Assembly (NCBI GenBank): GCA_002720865.1
Contig: PBIO01000003.1
Span: 1-64,000 of the forward strand
Reading direction: 5' to 3'
Length of the DNA: 64,000 nucleotides
Source: Halobacteriovorax sp.
GTDB lineage: Bacteria > Bdellovibrionota > Bacteriovoracia > Bacteriovoracales > Bacteriovoracaceae
Part shown: one piece after another, positions 50,574 to 57,476 of the stretch
Numbering within the stretch: the stretch's first letter is position 1
Layout of the letters: every line of letters starts with the position of its first letter
The notes under the pieces: generated by a model
Told to the model about the DNA's origin: nothing
Databases searched by the model: none
Seen by the model: the letters and a program-made list of their open reading frames with translations, nothing else
Made by a program: the position numbers and the translations under genes

Positions 50574-50630
50574 TGCGCTCAGCGTCTTTGACGGATACGG
50601 GGTTGGTGCTATGGTTTCTTCGGGGGTTTT

Positions 50631-51470
50631 ATGCAAAATTACATAGCTATCGATTTACCTAAAGAGAGCCTAAAGACGGCCTATCTTGAAGTGGGTGATA
50701 AAAGCTTACCTACAATACTTTTTATTCACGGCAACTCATCTTCAAAGGAAACTTTTAAAAAACAAGCTTCAAGTTTGAAGAACTCATATCATTTGATTGC
50801 TGTAGATCTACCAGGTCACGGTGGGACAGAGGCTCTAAAAAACTCAAAGTATTCTCTAAGTTTATTTAAGGAATTTCTTTTAAGTTTTATCAGGGCTTTG
50901 GATTTAGAAGTTCATACTTTAATGGGCCATTCTCTTGGTGGGCATATTTGTCTTCAGACGATGAACTCTATTTCAGCTCAAAGATTGATTTTATGGGGAA
51001 CTCCCCCAATGACTAATCCTCCCGTAATGGAGAAGATGTTCGCTCCTAATCCAAGTTCTGCACTTCTCTTTAAGAATGAACTTAATGAAGAAGAACTTCA
51101 AAAACTATATGAAAGTTGCTTCTCCCAAAGGTCAAGCCAAGGTTTCTTAGAGTATTCAGAAGCCTTTAGAAAAACCGATCATGAGTTTAGAGAAGGCTTT
51201 TTTCAAGAATTTACAAAACTTCTTTATCAAGATGAATTTTTAGAGCTCGATAAATTTCCAGGTCAGGTACTCTTTATTCATGGAAAAGAGGAGAAACTAA
51301 TTAATAAAGGTTACCTTGTTGAAAACTGTATTGATTTTCAAGTTGAGCTTGTAGAAGGCGCTGGTCATTTTACTCATCTTGATGCTCCTGATCTATTCAA
51401 TATGGCCTGTTTAAAATTCCTATCAACAAATTCTAAAAATATTAACCTCACTATGGAGACGAGTTACTAG
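50631..51470 (+). CDS. Alpha/beta hydrolase, 279 aa
   Basis: Canonical fold: FIHGNSSSKET (oxyanion), AVDLPGHGGTE, LMGHSLGGHIC with nucleophile Ser101, LFIHGKEEKL with the Asp/Glu position, and GAGHFTHLDAP with catalytic His246. Similar proteins include C-C bond hydrolases, lactonases and esterases. GGGGG precedes the ATG. The stop abuts the next ATG without a gap, coupling it to two HTH regulators; it may process a signal or metabolite that they control. Confidence 0.85.
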   Translation: MQNYIAIDLPKESLKTAYLEVGDKSLPTILFIHGNSSSKETFKKQASSLKNSYHLIAVDLPGHGGTEALKNSKYSLSLFKEFLLSFIRALDLEVHTLMGHSLGGHICLQTMNSISAQRLILWGTPPMTNPPVMEKMFAPNPSSALLFKNELNEEELQKLYESCFSQRSSQGFLEYSEAFRKTDHEFREGFFQEFTKLLYQDEFLELDKFPGQVLFIHGKEEKLINKGYLVENCIDFQVELVEGAGHFTHLDAPDLFNMACLKFLSTNSKNINLTMETSY

Positions 51471-52322
51471 ATGAACACTGAAAACTTAGGACTCATTTTT
51501 AAGAAACTTAGAAAGACCGCTGGTCTTTCTCAAATCGAAATGGCCAAGATCCTACAAAGAGATCAGGCCACCATTTCTAGATTAGAAAAAGGTACTCAGA
51601 GTTTAAGCCTAGAGTCTATTTTTGTCTTATCTAAATTCTTTGAAATAAAGTATGAGGATTTATTAAGTGGGCATGTGAACTATTGGGCCATTGCTAAAAA
51701 ATTTGATGTTCCACTAAAGATTGAAGAAAAATACTTAGATAATAATCATTCTGTGGTTAGAGAAGTCATTCCTCTTATGAGAATGATTGTCAAAAAACAA
51801 AGTGCCGACGGATTAAAAACTTTTTTGAAAAGATTTAACTTAGAAGATTTAATCTATATGTGCCCTAGTGAGAGCATTAGCTTTCATATTTATTTTGATC
51901 TCTTGCAAAGAGCTCTTCAATCTGAGCTGATCTCAAAAGATGATATCCCAAGTCTTGTGGCAGAGACTAAATCAATGGAGTATCACGGCTCTTTTTATAA
52001 AGTTTATCAAAAACAGCCGACCCCCATAAAGATCATTAAGGCCTATTCCTATAATTCTCCTCAATATGAAGGAGCTTTTGAGCATAATATTATCGATTTC
52101 TCTGAAAGAGCAGTGACTATTGGGTTTAAGGTTCGTGACTTTGCTAAAGAAATTGATTTTGCAAAAGGAGACATGGGCTCTTTCTTAATAGATTATAAGA
52201 AAGCATACTTCTCTGAACTTCCAAGTGTTTTTGGTTTTGACCCGTTGATTGCAAAACCTGCAATCAATAAGAGTAAGTCCTTAAGTGATGAAGTCTCTAT
52301 TAAGTTGATACAGTCGGCCTGA
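51471..52322 (+). CDS. XRE-type HTH regulator with a C-terminal sensor-like domain, 283 aa
   Basis: Residues ~7-62 are a classic Cro/CI helix-turn-helix (KLRKTAGLSQIEMAKILQRD, then QATISRLEKGTQSLSLESI). The remaining ~200 residues are an unrecognised domain with no obvious ligand motif. The ATG directly follows the hydrolase stop. The next gene overlaps it (TGATG) and encodes a protein of similar length that also starts with an XRE-like segment, so the two are probably paralogous partners. Likely controls this locus; the perfect palindrome at 54751-54770 is a candidate site. Confidence 0.78.
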   Translation: MNTENLGLIFKKLRKTAGLSQIEMAKILQRDQATISRLEKGTQSLSLESIFVLSKFFEIKYEDLLSGHVNYWAIAKKFDVPLKIEEKYLDNNHSVVREVIPLMRMIVKKQSADGLKTFLKRFNLEDLIYMCPSESISFHIYFDLLQRALQSELISKDDIPSLVAETKSMEYHGSFYKVYQKQPTPIKIIKAYSYNSPQYEGAFEHNIIDFSERAVTIGFKVRDFAKEIDFAKGDMGSFLIDYKKAYFSELPSVFGFDPLIAKPAINKSKSLSDEVSIKLIQSA

Positions 52323-53164
52323 TGTTTGCGGATATCGATTTAACATTACTGAATAATAATTTTGATAATCTTCTTATTAAAATGGGAGTATCCCGAAAAG
52401 ATATTTATGAGCTTTGCCGGGTCAAAGGTGATTCTAAAATCACATCCTTATCAGTCCTGGATATACAAAAAATTGTTGAAACTTTGAATATCGACCTTAG
52501 AGAACTTGGTAAGAATAATGTCTGCTCTAAAATTGTGAGAAAGCAATTGCTTGGGGAAAGAGAAGAAATTAGGGAAAATCTAATTGGCAATCAAGGAACT
52601 CGGATTAAGACTATCGAGTCGGCCTTAAGTTTACTTGATCAGCAAAGCCGTAAAGAAATTCTAAGAAAGTATCAGTTAAATGAAGATGTTTTTAAAGATG
52701 GGGCAAAACTTGTTTCAGCAGAGTTTATTAAATCGGTCTTTAAAGACTTAACGAAGTTTAGTTTTGCAAAAAGCTCTGAAATTGTGGGACATGTTAATTG
52801 TAAAAACTTTTTAGGTTCAAAATTTGATAAAGAGTTAAAGCAATTCAAATCTCCCGCTGAAGCTTATTCCTATTTTATTGAATATTGCACAACCGTTGTT
52901 GAAAAAAATATGGATTATAAAATACTTTCAGCAACTCCGAATAAAATCATTTTTAAGTATGAAACTAAAGAAGAAGTTAAAGATTTCTTTAAAGTTAAAC
53001 ATTTTGGCAATATTAACTTTTGTCAAAATATTCAAGGCTTCTTTGAGGAGCTTGTTAAGTATCGATACACTTATCCGGCCACAGTAAGAAAACTTTCATG
53101 CGCTCATCTTGGAAGTAGCTCCTGCACTTATGAGATAATTTTCGACGGTATCGTGACCCACTGA
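52322..53164 (+). CDS. XRE-like protein with C-terminal V4R-like domain, 280 aa
   Basis: Residues ~10-60 (LLIKMGVSRKDIYELCRVKG and DIQKIVETLNIDLREL) read like a degenerate XRE HTH. The C-terminal ~150 residues end with KLSCAHLGSSSCTYEIIFDG; the paired Cys near the end recall V4R (4-vinyl reductase-type) sensor domains that bind small molecules or metals. That match is weak. It is coupled to the previous regulator and overlaps the GNAT-like gene by 69 bp at the 3' end. Confidence 0.65.
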   Translation: MFADIDLTLLNNNFDNLLIKMGVSRKDIYELCRVKGDSKITSLSVLDIQKIVETLNIDLRELGKNNVCSKIVRKQLLGEREEIRENLIGNQGTRIKTIESALSLLDQQSRKEILRKYQLNEDVFKDGAKLVSAEFIKSVFKDLTKFSFAKSSEIVGHVNCKNFLGSKFDKELKQFKSPAEAYSYFIEYCTTVVEKNMDYKILSATPNKIIFKYETKEEVKDFFKVKHFGNINFCQNIQGFFEELVKYRYTYPATVRKLSCAHLGSSSCTYEIIFDGIVTH

Positions 53165-53863
53165 GGCGTCACTAATTTGAATTCGTCCCTTCCAAAGAAA
53201 AAGATATTTTTTGGCCAGTTCTAGACAATAGGGAGTTAGCTCTTCACAGGCCTGAACCTCAAATCTCTCGTTAGCGTAACAAGGAAAATTAATAGGCTCA
53301 AGGGGACGCCCTTCGTGCTTTATGGGTAAAAGACCCATTTGGTGATACATGGTATCCGTATGAGTTCGGCAAGACCCAAGAGCAAGTGATTTATCAATTT
53401 TCCAATGAATATGAGAGTAGGCAAATAAAGGTATGAGAAAGTCGATGGCCTCCTTCCTCTCTTCTCTAGGAATATTTGGATCTATTGTAAATGAGCTTGA
53501 ATAAGCAATATTAAGATCACTATATTTAGAAACAAAATTTTTTAAGGCCTGAATATGATTTTGGCTTCCCGTGGAGTCACATAAAACTTCACCACTAAAG
53601 GGCATCCCATACTTCTCGCATCTGCTTCTTTCGATTACTCTATAAGCGGTAATTGGAAAAAGCTCTCCATTTCTTTCCTGACAAAAGGCTAAATGGGTTC
53701 CATGAAAGTCACTTTTATCTACAGGGGCATAATTAAGTGGAAATCTAGATTGATAACCTAACTTCTTTAATAAAATTATTTTATTAAACATCTCTCTTAC
53801 AAAAGGAGAGTCCCAGCTGGCAAAAGGATTATCTAAAACAAGGATTCTTAAGTTTTTTATCAT
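53096..53863 (-). CDS. GNAT-like N-acyltransferase, resembling acyl-homoserine-lactone-synthase-type enzymes, 255 aa
   Basis: The pattern THLAFCQERNGELFPITAYRVIE (residues ~55-77) followed by SSSFTIDPNIPREERKEAI and MYHQMGLLPI fits the GNAT fold as used by autoinducer synthases and related N-acyltransferases; this is shape recognition, not a firm match. AGAGG lies before the ATG. It overlaps the methyltransferase gene as ATGA. The last ~23 codons lie opposite the end of the V4R-like gene. Product unknown; an acylated signal or lipid is the leading guess. Confidence 0.5.
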   Translation of the reverse strand: MIKNLRILVLDNPFASWDSPFVREMFNKIILLKKLGYQSRFPLNYAPVDKSDFHGTHLAFCQERNGELFPITAYRVIERSRCEKYGMPFSGEVLCDSTGSQNHIQALKNFVSKYSDLNIAYSSSFTIDPNIPREERKEAIDFLIPLFAYSHIHWKIDKSLALGSCRTHTDTMYHQMGLLPIKHEGRPLEPINFPCYANERFEVQACEELTPYCLELAKKYLFLWKGRIQISDASVGHDTVENYLISAGATSKMSA

Positions 53864-54621
53864 ACTCTACCTCTTACAATGAATTTGTTAAAAAACATGA
53901 CGGATGCTTTATGTTCTAATAAGAGCAGGTAATTCCTGCTAAATTCTTTAGATTTCTTTTCACCAAAAGCTTTTAAAAGCTCTGGCTCAATTGCGTTAAG
54001 TCTCATCTCACTATTTTCTTTTTCTAGTTCGAGCTCTTCCCCTTTAAAGTGAAAGGAGCTCATAGAGCAGTCAAACTGTGAGATACCGGCAAGATGAAAA
54101 AATGAAGAGATCTTTCTTCCGGCCTCTAGGTCAACTTTTAGTTGGGTGACAAGATAGCTTAAATCTTTATTAAACTCTAAGTTAGAGGTGTGAAAGTTTT
54201 TAAAAACGCCATCTATATCTATTACGATAATCTCCCCCCCAGGCTTACAAACTCTTTTAAATTCTTTTAAAACTTTTGTCGGATCTGGAAGATATTCAAA
54301 AACATAACGACAGACGATAAGATCAAAACTATTATCTTTGGCTTCAATTTTTTCTAGTGATGACTTGAAGAAATTTCCGCTAGGGTTTTTCTTTTTAGCG
54401 TGGGCAACCCTAATATCAGAAAAGTCACATCCTGATATTTTTGAGTTAATGGAGTTTGCTATTAAGTAATGACTGACATCTCCGCCCCCACAACCAGCAT
54501 CGAGAATATTTTTATTATTTAGATCAACCTCTTTAAGCTCTTCCTCAATTGAATAGGCTTGAATCTTCTTTTGAAGCTCTAAGCGTTCAGCCTCCTTTGC
54601 GTTCTCTAAAATATAGGCCAT
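53860..54621 (-). CDS. Class I SAM-dependent methyltransferase, 253 aa
   Basis: ILDAGCGGGDVSHYLI (SAM loop), GCDFSDIRVAHA (acidic end of strand 2), SFDLIVCRYVFEYLPDPTKVL and KPGGEIIVIDIDG are the standard motifs of the ubiE-like group. Substrate unknown. AGGAGAGC precedes the ATG. It is the first gene of a minus-strand pair with the GNAT-like enzyme, so the pair may make and methylate a small molecule. Confidence 0.88.
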   Translation of the reverse strand: MAYILENAKEAERLELQKKIQAYSIEEELKEVDLNNKNILDAGCGGGDVSHYLIANSINSKISGCDFSDIRVAHAKKKNPSGNFFKSSLEKIEAKDNSFDLIVCRYVFEYLPDPTKVLKEFKRVCKPGGEIIVIDIDGVFKNFHTSNLEFNKDLSYLVTQLKVDLEAGRKISSFFHLAGISQFDCSMSSFHFKGEELELEKENSEMRLNAIEPELLKAFGEKKSKEFSRNYLLLLEHKASVMFFNKFIVRGRV

Positions 54622-54750
54622 GGAAGCTCTCCTTGATTATTTATAAACCTCATTGTGAGCTACTCCTTTCGGAGCTAGGGGATAGAACTTGAGATTAAAT
54701 TTAACGTGATTTTAGGTGCTTATGATTGCGATGGACGGAAAAATCTTAAC

Positions 54751-54770
54751 TATATGTAATTTTACATATA
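54751..54770. promoter_or_regulatory. Perfect 20-bp palindrome, candidate operator
   Basis: tatatgtaa-tt-ttacatata: two 9-bp perfect arms (54751-54759 and 54762-54770). It lies between the divergent methyltransferase and kinase genes, 38 bases before the kinase start and 130 before the other. Confidence 0.6.
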
Positions 54771-54807
54771 TGCTTTACCATGTTTTTAGAGAGAAAAAGG
54801 GATGTTT

Positions 54808-55425
54808 ATGGAAACAGATATTAAGATACTGGCTCACGATATTAATAACCAAATGATGGTGATTAAAATGGTTGTGAATGAGCTTATCAAGGAACTCTTT
54901 AGCCCGAACGCTAGTAAGAAGTCAGCAGTTCAATTAAGCCGTAAACTTGAAGCAAGTATCTCTAAGGTGACAACAATTTGTAAGGAGGCCATGGAAGGGG
55001 AAGAGGTCTCTGAAGTTCATTTAGGAGAGTGCATTCAAAAGGCACTTACCTATTGTGAGAATTACCCAGTAGAAACGGAGTTTATTAAGCAAAGGGACCC
55101 AGTAAAAGAGATCTCAGCTAGCTCCTTTGAGAGATTACTTATAAACCTCTTTAAAAATTCTATTGAGGCCTCTGCAGATAAAATTATGGTGGAGCTTCGA
55201 GAAAATTTTCTTCTGGTTAAAGATAATGGCGGCGGTTTATCCCCTGAGCAATTATTGGCCTTTAAGGGGGGAGACTTCTCTAGCACAAAAGACTTAGGGC
55301 ATGGTCTTGGCCTTAAGTCTCTCTATGATTTTTGCCAAAGAGTAAATTGGACCGCTGAAATTTCAAACTTTGACTATCTCCATGAGAGAAAGAAAAAGGG
55401 TCTAAAGATTCAGATTTCCTTCTAA
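54808..55425 (+). CDS. Short histidine kinase without sensor domain, 205 aa
   Basis: ILAHDINNQMMVIKM contains the phosphorylatable His10 of an H-box; the catalytic part has N-box LLINLFKNSIEA, G1 VKDNGGGLS and G2 GHGLGLKSL. It has no transmembrane or sensor region and no response regulator nearby. I chose ATG 54808 because AAGG sits seven bases upstream; ATG 54802 leaves no room. A perfect palindrome lies upstream. It could receive its signal from a partner protein or act as an anti-sigma-like regulator. Confidence 0.82.
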   Translation: METDIKILAHDINNQMMVIKMVVNELIKELFSPNASKKSAVQLSRKLEASISKVTTICKEAMEGEEVSEVHLGECIQKALTYCENYPVETEFIKQRDPVKEISASSFERLLINLFKNSIEASADKIMVELRENFLLVKDNGGGLSPEQLLAFKGGDFSSTKDLGHGLGLKSLYDFCQRVNWTAEISNFDYLHERKKKGLKIQISF

Positions 55426-55443: not shown

Positions 55444-55791
55444 GTGAAGATACTGTTTTTACTACTATTTTCCTTTAATGCTGAGTCTTTTGATCCTGAT
55501 CAAAAGCTAAGTAAATGCGGGGAATATCAGGCCTTTGGGTCGATTTCTTGCCAGGGGGCAGGTCCTTGTGAGCTGGTTATCGCTAGCTCTAAACAGTCGA
55601 AATTATTAGTATCTTTGATTCCTCCTTTAAAGAATATCTCTTACTTTAGTGGTCAGGATATAATGGTAAATATCGGGATTCATAGTCTCGAAAAACCCTT
55701 AAAAGCTTCTGTTCTCTCTGCCCCGATTCAGCAGCTAAGGGCCATTAAAAAGGCGGGGCTAAGTCTTAAGAAGGAGAAAATTTGCAAATAG
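55444..55791 (+). CDS. Small exported protein, 115 aa
   Basis: Family not recognised. A short signal peptide (MKILFLLLFSFNAES) precedes a beta-rich mature part with four Cys clustered as KCGEY, SCQGAGPC and a final Cys near the end. GTG start; no clear Shine-Dalgarno. It overlaps the caspase-like gene by 10 bp, so both are probably made together and both exported; an inhibitor or partner of the peptidase is possible. Confidence 0.62.
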   Translation: MKILFLLLFSFNAESFDPDQKLSKCGEYQAFGSISCQGAGPCELVIASSKQSKLLVSLIPPLKNISYFSGQDIMVNIGIHSLEKPLKASVLSAPIQQLRAIKKAGLSLKKEKICK

Positions 55792-57476
55792 TTCTAGTCT
55801 CCTTATTTTTTCTTTTAGCTAGCACGAGCTTTGCTCAAGATAAGTGGGCCATAACCGTTGGCGCCGATCATGAGGGCGGAAAAGAATTTGTTAAAGCACA
55901 AAATATTCGCGCTCATAATTCTTTGAAGGAAGCAGGCTATAAAGTAAGAAGCCTTTTTGGAAATGAAGCAAAGGCAAAAGAATTTTCCAAGTCTACAAAA
56001 AGTTATACGAGACCTTTTACTGAAGAGAACTTAAAAAAGTCTATTGCTGCGGTTTATGAAAAACCCTGCCATGATAGACCCTCACAATTGATGATAAATT
56101 TTGTGGCCCATGGCTCCCGAAATGGAACTGATCCTAAAACAAAAAAATCTATTCCAAGGCACTCAATCAATGGAGTTGAGAAAACTGGAGAAGGAAGTTA
56201 TGGTGGAAAAAGAATCTATGTTGATAACCTTGCCAGCTTTTTAAAAAAGCAGCGGGCCAAAGATTCAAGTTGTGATAAACCAAAACTTGCAATTATTGAT
56301 CACTCTTGTAAAAGTGGAGCGTCGACCAATGTGTTTAAAGGTCTAGGTTGTGTTCTAACTTCGACAAGCAGTCATAACTCCGCTAGTACTGAATATATTC
56401 ATGAGACCTTTGAGAAGATGAAGCAATCTAAGGGGCAAAGCTTAGCTGACCTACATTTAGATATGCTAGTCAATCAAGAGGTAAGCCTCGTCAATATTGA
56501 TTACAAAGACGGTAAAACTCTTCTTCAGAAAATTTATAATGATACCAATCAGATCTCTGGTTGCGGCGATGAAGAGCAGGTTAACTATTCAGGCTATAGT
56601 AAACATACTAGCAAAAAGTATGCTCCCCTTTGCCAGGAGTATGTGGCCGTCCTGGCCGAGCTTAGAGGAGCCGAAATCGGTGTTCTTAATAAAATTGTTT
56701 CAAAACTTAGAATTGATGCTGGTGTAGATAAGTCAGAGCTTGCCAAGGCCGCTGGTGTTGAAGCCGCAAGTCTACCGGACTCTGAAGCCCTAAAGCAAAA
56801 CTTAGAAGAGCTTATTGAAGAAGATGCGGCAGAGTTTGATAAAATCACACCTCTTGCTATGGAAGAATCCAAATTAATGAATCATGAAGACTTAAGAAAA
56901 GGACTTCGCTGTGGTCTAAAGACTGGTCCTCGCACAAGAAGCTCAATTAGTAATTCTGATTTAGCGGAGAAAATGGGGAAAACCTTATGTCATTCTCTCT
57001 ATTCCGACGAACGAAAAATAAGAAACTGCTCAGCCAGCTCTAGAAATAAAGTTGTAGGTATTGATTTAAAAGATCTATTACAAATTAAAAGAGATCATAA
57101 AGTTTACCCAAGTAAAAGAGCAAAGGGCTATTTACAAAAAAGGCTTTCAGACTCAGGTAAACCTAGAGGCCTGGGGGCGAGGTCTAACTCAAGCTATGAA
57201 ATTCTTAATGAAACAGTCTCCAGCTGTCTTAAAAAGTATGGGGAAAGTGGAACTGACGCTCAAAAGGCGGCCATAGCTTTTTTTAATAAGAACTATAAGA
57301 AAACCGATGCCTCTTGTAGTGAAAACACCATCGCTTGCCATAAAGCCAAGGCCGATGAACGGGCCAAAAAAATAAAGAAACAACTCTCTTATGCCAGGGG
57401 CTATGCTTTCTTAAGCTGTAAGGCAAAACTTAAAAACTCCGAAGATCTAAAAGCCTGTGAAGATTTTAAAATTTAA
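55782..57476 (+). CDS. Exported clan-CD cysteine peptidase (caspase/legumain-like), 564 aa
   Basis: TTG start with AGGAGAAAAT upstream; signal peptide ends LASTSFAQ. LMINFVAHGSRNG carries His110 and LAIIDHSCKSGAS carries Cys176, the HG...DxCxSG dyad of clan CD (caspase, legumain, gingipain types). The N-terminal strand KWAITVGADHEGGKE also fits. The C-terminal ~300 residues are Lys-rich with many Cys and are unrecognised. Substrate unknown; likely exported. Its stop abuts the convergent transglutaminase-like gene with no gap. Confidence 0.78.
   Translation: MQIVLVSLFFLLASTSFAQDKWAITVGADHEGGKEFVKAQNIRAHNSLKEAGYKVRSLFGNEAKAKEFSKSTKSYTRPFTEENLKKSIAAVYEKPCHDRPSQLMINFVAHGSRNGTDPKTKKSIPRHSINGVEKTGEGSYGGKRIYVDNLASFLKKQRAKDSSCDKPKLAIIDHSCKSGASTNVFKGLGCVLTSTSSHNSASTEYIHETFEKMKQSKGQSLADLHLDMLVNQEVSLVNIDYKDGKTLLQKIYNDTNQISGCGDEEQVNYSGYSKHTSKKYAPLCQEYVAVLAELRGAEIGVLNKIVSKLRIDAGVDKSELAKAAGVEAASLPDSEALKQNLEELIEEDAAEFDKITPLAMEESKLMNHEDLRKGLRCGLKTGPRTRSSISNSDLAEKMGKTLCHSLYSDERKIRNCSASSRNKVVGIDLKDLLQIKRDHKVYPSKRAKGYLQKRLSDSGKPRGLGARSNSSYEILNETVSSCLKKYGESGTDAQKAAIAFFNKNYKKTDASCSENTIACHKAKADERAKKIKKQLSYARGYAFLSCKAKLKNSEDLKACEDFKI

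Follow-up and report, generated by a model that had tools for sequence, protein, structure and literature searches.

Does a compact cluster of six genes in the genome of Halobacteriovorax sp. encode a chemical signalling system and, if so, to which of the known kinds does it belong? The locus lies in a 64,000-nucleotide stretch of contig PBIO01000003.1, hereafter the window, and an initial annotation had read it as such a system, in which a GNAT-like acyltransferase and a methyltransferase make a compound, HTH/V4R-like proteins sense it and a hydrolase removes it. The gene calls in the window confirmed the coordinates and orientations of its six-gene layout, with a hydrolase, a HTH pair, a convergent GNAT-like gene, a methyltransferase and a divergent kinase. 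Together with two candidate operators, the features are the following:

50631..51470, plus strand: alpha/beta hydrolase (ABH; PF12697/PF00561), first gene of the receptor operon
51471..52322, plus strand: HTH-A, XRE regulator (PF01381, E=9.2e-10), paralogue of HTH-B
52322..53164, plus strand: HTH-B, paralogue of HTH-A with a V4R-like C-terminal domain, candidate signal-binding subunit
53096..53863, minus strand: GNAT-like acyltransferase, candidate signal synthase (hhalign 95.5% to PF13444 proteins)
53860..54621, minus strand: SAM-dependent methyltransferase (PF08241, E=2.1e-21), candidate tailoring enzyme
54802..55425, plus strand: small histidine kinase (PF02518, E=1.6e-9), with an H-box-like segment, LAHDINNQ, and a HATPase
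54751..54770, no strand assigned: candidate operator 1, TATATGTAATTTTACATATA, a perfect 9-2-9 palindrome
50630..50645, no strand assigned: candidate operator 2, TATGCAAAATTACATA, at the hydrolase gene, whose annotated start codon it overlaps

The HTH-B and GNAT genes are convergent and their 3' ends overlap by 69 bases, the methyltransferase gene overlaps the start of the GNAT gene by 4 bases, and operator 1 is located between the divergent methyltransferase and kinase genes. Pfam searches agreed with the proposed identities of the alpha/beta hydrolase and the methyltransferase, as well as with the HTH domain in the first regulator and the HATPase domain in the kinase, the latter protein being composed of the HATPase and the H-box-like segment without a sensor domain. 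The hydrolase is a candidate signal-degrading or processing enzyme, and the kinase a candidate output or modulator. Taken as a whole, the locus is a compact and apparently self-controlled gene module that seems both to make and to sense a fat-derived chemical signal.

The GNAT-like protein has no match in Pfam, including the LuxI family (PF00765), nor in NCBIfam, and a profile search against PDB sequences retrieved none either; PF00765 was also absent from the genome, in a search that had no working positive control. The GNAT nature of the protein, proposed earlier, rests instead on its profile-profile match to PF13444. The family profile aligned over a conserved core, with an hhalign probability of 95.5%, with eleven bacterial acyltransferases which had been chosen as weak matches to this same profile and among which all eleven match PF13444, six FeeM and one the LuxI family (Autoind_synth). 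Column-shuffled controls did not exceed 0.6% and unrelated families 0.3%. The eleven acyltransferases in turn reached 96.1% against LuxI proteins, and the direct comparison of the GNAT family with LuxI gave only 20.6%, colinear over 114 columns. The high value with PF13444 proteins and the low direct one with LuxI indicate that, as judged from sequence, the GNAT protein is related to acyl-ACP-type acyltransferases and is not a LuxI. A relationship with an unrelated family such as the ribosomal-protein acetylases, which had been considered as a possible objection, was rejected given this affiliation with PF13444/FeeM/LuxI-type acyl transferases. The ThiF fusion family NF011425 was also considered as a possible fused pair, but its N-terminal portion gave no match to the GNAT.

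With the PF13444 proteins (Acetyltransf_5, OlsB-like) and the FeeM N-acyl amino acid synthases, the GNAT family has in common the first half of the domain, including the motif K/R..GY/F, D..DF..tHl and the strands that follow. Unlike them, it constitutes a family of its own below curated thresholds (PF13444 was matched by only 1 of 35 members, at E=0.0099, without reaching the curated Pfam threshold), the catalytic region of the second half is not common to both, and it is nearly always tied to regulators. The region of the catalytic Glu of LuxI/OlsB is replaced by YSSSFTIDP, so the substrate or the chemistry of the enzyme may differ from theirs. AF2 predictions on two-sequence alignments gave pLDDT values of 36 for the GNAT protein and 45 for HTH-B, too low for a fold search. 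Relatives of PF13444 and FeeM make ornithine lipids and N-acyl amino acids, which would also suit a gene cluster producing an acylated secondary metabolite or an aminolipid (a surfactant, a membrane lipid or a predation aid), whose regulator would sense the product or a precursor locally, with no cell-to-cell signalling. We judge this explanation rather unlikely, on evidence given below.

A profile search detected the GNAT family in 95 of 369 genomes of the phylum, about a quarter, some 15 of these 95 resting only on weak partial matches that belong to PF13444 proteins. Its members are spread over several families of the phylum, including several genomes of a Bdellovibrionaceae-like family, and their identity is mostly only 20-30%; a search with one sequence as query detected the family in 36 of 143 genomes, and the congener was the sole match when contigs were searched with the single GNAT protein. 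The gene is single-copy in the genome of the window. Neighbourhoods were read around 61 GNAT genes. A regulator of the HTH-A/HTH-B family occurs within six genes of the GNAT gene in 56 of them, and in 43 it is the very next gene on the 3' side, always convergent and mostly with overlapping ends, for a chance expectation of about 1% with one to three such regulators per 3-4 Mb genome. This recurrence exceeds chance, and the adjacency of the genes in relatives across the phylum upholds the gene-order conservation on which the signalling proposal depended.

Within about 6 kb of the GNAT gene, a methyltransferase was found at 30 loci, an alpha/beta hydrolase at 33 (forming two sequence clusters), a histidine-kinase HATPase, often accompanied by an operator, at 32, a ThiF enzyme at 23 and a PLP cysteine-synthase-like enzyme at 6. 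The association with the kinase may partly be background, histidine kinases being common. When loci with enough context were counted and the congener was left out, 26 had the methyltransferase only, 22 the ThiF only, 1 both and 6 neither (Fisher p=5.5e-9, a value made optimistic by the kinship of the genomes). Since a carboxylate is a possible substrate for either enzyme, the two may well provide alternative caps for a single product. The participation of the methyltransferase in synthesis, as initially annotated, is thus retained as a candidate tailoring step, and amended in that the methyltransferase is one of two alternatives. Tailoring by ThiF, PLP and methyltransferase enzymes would also be at home in the metabolite pathway evoked above, but one acyltransferase and one tailoring enzyme would make a very small pathway.

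A GNAT gene adjoining a HTH gene is moreover the layout of toxin-antitoxin systems, and ThiF is known from defence systems, so that a cassette formed by a GNAT toxin and a HTH antitoxin, or an E1/ThiF defence system, had to be weighed. The GNAT and regulator genes are convergent instead of forming one operon, the locus carries enzymes and a kinase, and PADLOC gave only generic similarities to HTH, methyltransferase and E1 domains, with no match for GNAT or HTH-B. We rejected a type II toxin-antitoxin or defence system on the convergent genes and the PADLOC result, and consider the broader toxin-antitoxin or defence explanation very improbable.

The two regulators had been described as HTH proteins with different C-terminal domains. 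Only the second has a recognisable V4R domain, as proposed, but their C-termini are not unrelated: the HTH-B profile matches HTH-A over positions 5-263 of 287 (E=1.7e-24), making them full-length paralogues. In Pfam, the HTH-B of the window matches only V4R, and weakly (E=0.039), while V4R is found in 6 of 34 HTH-B relatives, with a best value of 4.8e-9, which supports a V4R sensor domain in the HTH-B family. No V4R was found in HTH-A members, the single match in that set being the HTH-B of the window, which was included there. A profile search of PDB sequences with HTH-B retrieved XRE domains only. In HTH-A the recognition helix is intact (DQATISRLEK) and the C-terminal domain degenerate, and the members of its family keep the canonical XRE recognition helix xQ[SGA]xx[SC][KR], whereas those of HTH-B do not; in the helix alignment, six residues are missing from HTH-B in the window protein and its congener. 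In several Bdellovibrionaceae-like loci (L123, L125, L129, L132, L133), the gene after HTH-B instead encodes a separate XRE protein about 100 residues long. The loss of the helix in HTH-B, its V4R domain and the stand-alone XRE partner of some loci fit a division of labour in which the pair would form one split receptor, HTH-B sensing and its partner reading DNA, with HTH-A as the candidate DNA-binding subunit. The sensor role initially assigned to the HTH/V4R-like proteins is kept in this form, as one receptor split between paralogues instead of two different sensors. According to PMC2253512, V4R domains probably bind hydrophobic ligands, with signalling in cis or in trans.

XRE regulators are commonly encoded alongside detoxifying enzymes, and the V4R domain of XylR-type regulators senses phenols (PMC10715001). 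The locus might accordingly be a sensor and response cassette for foreign hydrophobic compounds, for example derived from prey, which HTH-B/V4R would detect and which the GNAT, the methyltransferase and the hydrolase would modify. This explanation appears improbable to us, as both the resemblance of the GNAT protein to acyl-ACP-dependent synthases and its strict pairing and co-divergence with HTH-B fit a cognate synthase-receptor pair better.

A palindrome, TATTCY-N4-RGAATA, first noticed in six loci, is present in module promoters. The 952 kb of module neighbourhoods contain 48 matches to it with at most one mismatch, 36 of which lie no more than 350 bases upstream of module genes. Under a stricter promoter mask, which leaves out the kinase promoters and covers 6.4% of the sequence, 29 of the 48 matches fall inside; without the six discovery loci the count is 19 of 33. 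With other spacings of the palindrome it is at most 5, and among 120 permutations of the half-site the true one ranks first (near-identical variant 20, next 8, median 2). The window palindrome TATATGTAATTTTACATATA (54751-54770) differs from the TATTCY sequence and has the same geometry. The 4.9 Mb genome has a single exact copy of its core and only two further sites at one mismatch or less, one of them TATGCAAAATTACATA (50630-50645) at the start of the receptor operon, and both window sites are among the three best of the genome. The congener keeps 16 of the 20 positions of operator 1 and has an identical operator 2. Under a hand-made assignment of helix and operator classes, loci whose HTH-A helix ends in S-K have a TATTCY site in 17 of 22 cases vs 2 of 13 for the others (p=5e-4).

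As judged from sequence, the promoters of the candidate synthase and receptor share an operator, one of the marks of a quorum-sensing system in the functional sense. There was no sign of a genome-wide regulon of these operators, the site counts resembling those of a reversed-pattern control, and the operator appears to be restricted in the main to the module, an unusual situation in quorum sensing and one that favours the metabolite explanation.

The evolutionary behaviour of the synthase and the sensor argues in the opposite direction. Across 25 genomes, GNAT and HTH-B distances are correlated (r=0.54), equally so when ribosomal protein S2 is accounted for (partial r 0.54; 0 of 2000 permutations), in statistics that are not fully independent across related genomes; S2 distances show a correlation of about 0 with those of GNAT or HTH-B. 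Pairs of the same genus or family, with S2 83-91% identical, have GNAT proteins with 19-24% and HTH-B proteins with 9-18% identity, and in one within-genus pair an S2 identity of 91% is accompanied by only 19% for GNAT and 18% for HTH-B. Conversely, two genomes of different genera (G046 and G073) share 39% identity in GNAT and 46% in HTH-B. Such a pattern is that of matched partners which are either swapped or diversifying fast. The linkage and co-evolution of what appear to be cognate synthase and receptor genes are a further mark of quorum sensing. Against a locally controlled metabolite, the two partners diverge in step and are replaced by one another within genera, as private signals would be expected to do, and other genomes contain apparent receptor-only HTH-A/HTH-B pairs with no GNAT detected.

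What is least certain is whether the product serves as a signal or as a metabolite under local control. The family, synteny, operator and co-divergence analyses lend strong, though indirect, support to the signalling reading: the roles that the initial annotation gave to synthase, sensor and hydrolase are consistent with the V4R domain, the operators and the co-divergence, while we infer the diffusible nature of the signal and its removal by the hydrolase. We regard it as probable that the locus is a self-contained, autoregulated small-molecule signalling module, similar to LuxI/LuxR in its working and built from other families. In such a module, the GNAT-like enzyme, by its fold family, would attach an acyl chain to an amine, for instance an amino acid, with acyl-ACP or acyl-CoA as the probable donor. 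The free carboxylate would be masked here as a methyl ester by the methyltransferase, and in other species by the ThiF adenylating enzyme that takes its place at their loci, sometimes with the cysteine-synthase-like PLP enzyme. The hydrophobic product would bind the V4R domain of HTH-B, the protein that has lost its recognition helix, and HTH-B would act on its paralogue HTH-A, which would bind the palindromic operators found before the receptor operon, the synthase genes and the kinase. The hydrolase would trim or remove the signal and the kinase would relay the state onward. The product would be an acylated, carboxyl-capped small molecule and the response autoinductive.

Like LuxI/LuxR, this module associates a candidate synthase, tentatively of the wider GNAT acyltransferase superfamily, with an adjoining and apparently cognate transcription regulator, and it shares with that system palindromic operators in its promoters, synthase/receptor co-divergence and apparent receptor-only relatives. 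It differs in that its GNAT is not a PF00765 member, in the addition of the methyltransferase or ThiF, the hydrolase and the kinase, and in its receptor, which is not of the LuxR fold: XRE and V4R are distributed over two paralogues, with V4R on HTH-B, where LuxR unites an autoinducer-binding domain and a GerE-type HTH in one chain. The absence of a standard LuxI/LuxR pair, as initially annotated, stands, and the module would be best classed, by function, with acyl-signal quorum sensing and not with LuxI/LuxR. With the V4R phenol sensors of the XylR/DmpR/PheR type it has in common a V4R hydrophobic ligand sensor coupled to transcription; these are one-chain sigma54 activators, whereas the V4R of the module is joined to a degenerate XRE domain with its candidate DNA-binding partner in trans. 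In Ralstonia, PhcB works with the PhcS/PhcR two-component system in 3-OH-PAME signalling. The proposed capping of a fatty-acid-derived signal as a methyl ester by a SAM methyltransferase would be similar, but the module has an acyltransferase and a V4R/XRE pair. The proposed product would fall in the same compound class as the N-acyl amino acid esters (NAMEs) of Roseovarius, without a gene link between them and the module; no candidate synthase gene was found for the NAMEs, and in that study they take no part in AHL signalling (PMC11580390).

A group of Bdellovibrio-like predatory bacteria was described in a 2023 review as lacking quorum sensing, and no paper describing the module was found in the open-access literature searched. 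What we observe is a compact module that is conserved and has candidate operators of its own, in which a synthase-like and a receptor-like protein are matched and two tailoring enzymes alternate. Its occurrence in about a quarter of the Bdellovibrionota genomes searched makes predator-to-predator talk testable with a named candidate synthase, receptor and operator, and, if the reading is true, the split receptor and the interchangeable methyltransferase/ThiF steps would be new designs for signal diversity. The product would probably be one of the N-acyl amino acid esters, the class for which Roseovarius had yielded no candidate synthase gene. More tentatively, and with slightly less than even confidence, we propose that these loci form a previously undescribed, phylum-wide class of chemical communication in predatory Bdellovibrionota, with private acyl signals made by a new acyltransferase family, swapped methyl-ester/ThiF tailoring and a split receptor whose V4R sensor, with its degenerate HTH, controls a separate DNA-binding paralogue.

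In comparison with the congener, the nearest relative, all six window genes are under purifying selection, their non-synonymous divergence being far below the synonymous one, with synonymous sites near saturation.

Among the relatives, the Bdellovibrionaceae-like loci L123, L125, L129, L132 and L133 encode a stand-alone XRE protein, roughly 100 residues long, next to HTH-B, the candidate signal-binding paralogue with a V4R-like domain; this XRE protein is a candidate for the DNA-binding partner of HTH-B there. L132 (G230:C15) comprises an adjoining, divergent pair of complete GNAT/HTH-B modules within a single genome. Divergent to the GNAT-like acyltransferase gene, L037, L124, L126, L127 and L128 carry ThiF and a cysteine-synthase-like PLP enzyme, with a histidine kinase gene next in four of the five (not L037).

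At six places with pairs of HTH-B and the XRE regulator HTH-A, no GNAT gene was detected, and these could possibly be receptor-only, eavesdropping loci.

HTH-A/HTH-B pairs, GNAT not detected
G010:C8:56059-57609
G029:C75:4659-6319
G053:C103:7281-9065
G068:C9:97197-98862
G072:C58:823-2393
G038:C123:20306-21954

Two tandem, exact copies of the candidate TATTCY operator occur at G022:C19:84285-84334; roughly 2 kb away lies a second gene of HTH-A/HTH-B-like type (86556-87200). In the window, 55782-57476 (+) encodes a predicted secreted protein of 564 residues, without Pfam match, which displays the caspase-like motifs HGSRNG and DHSCKSGAS.
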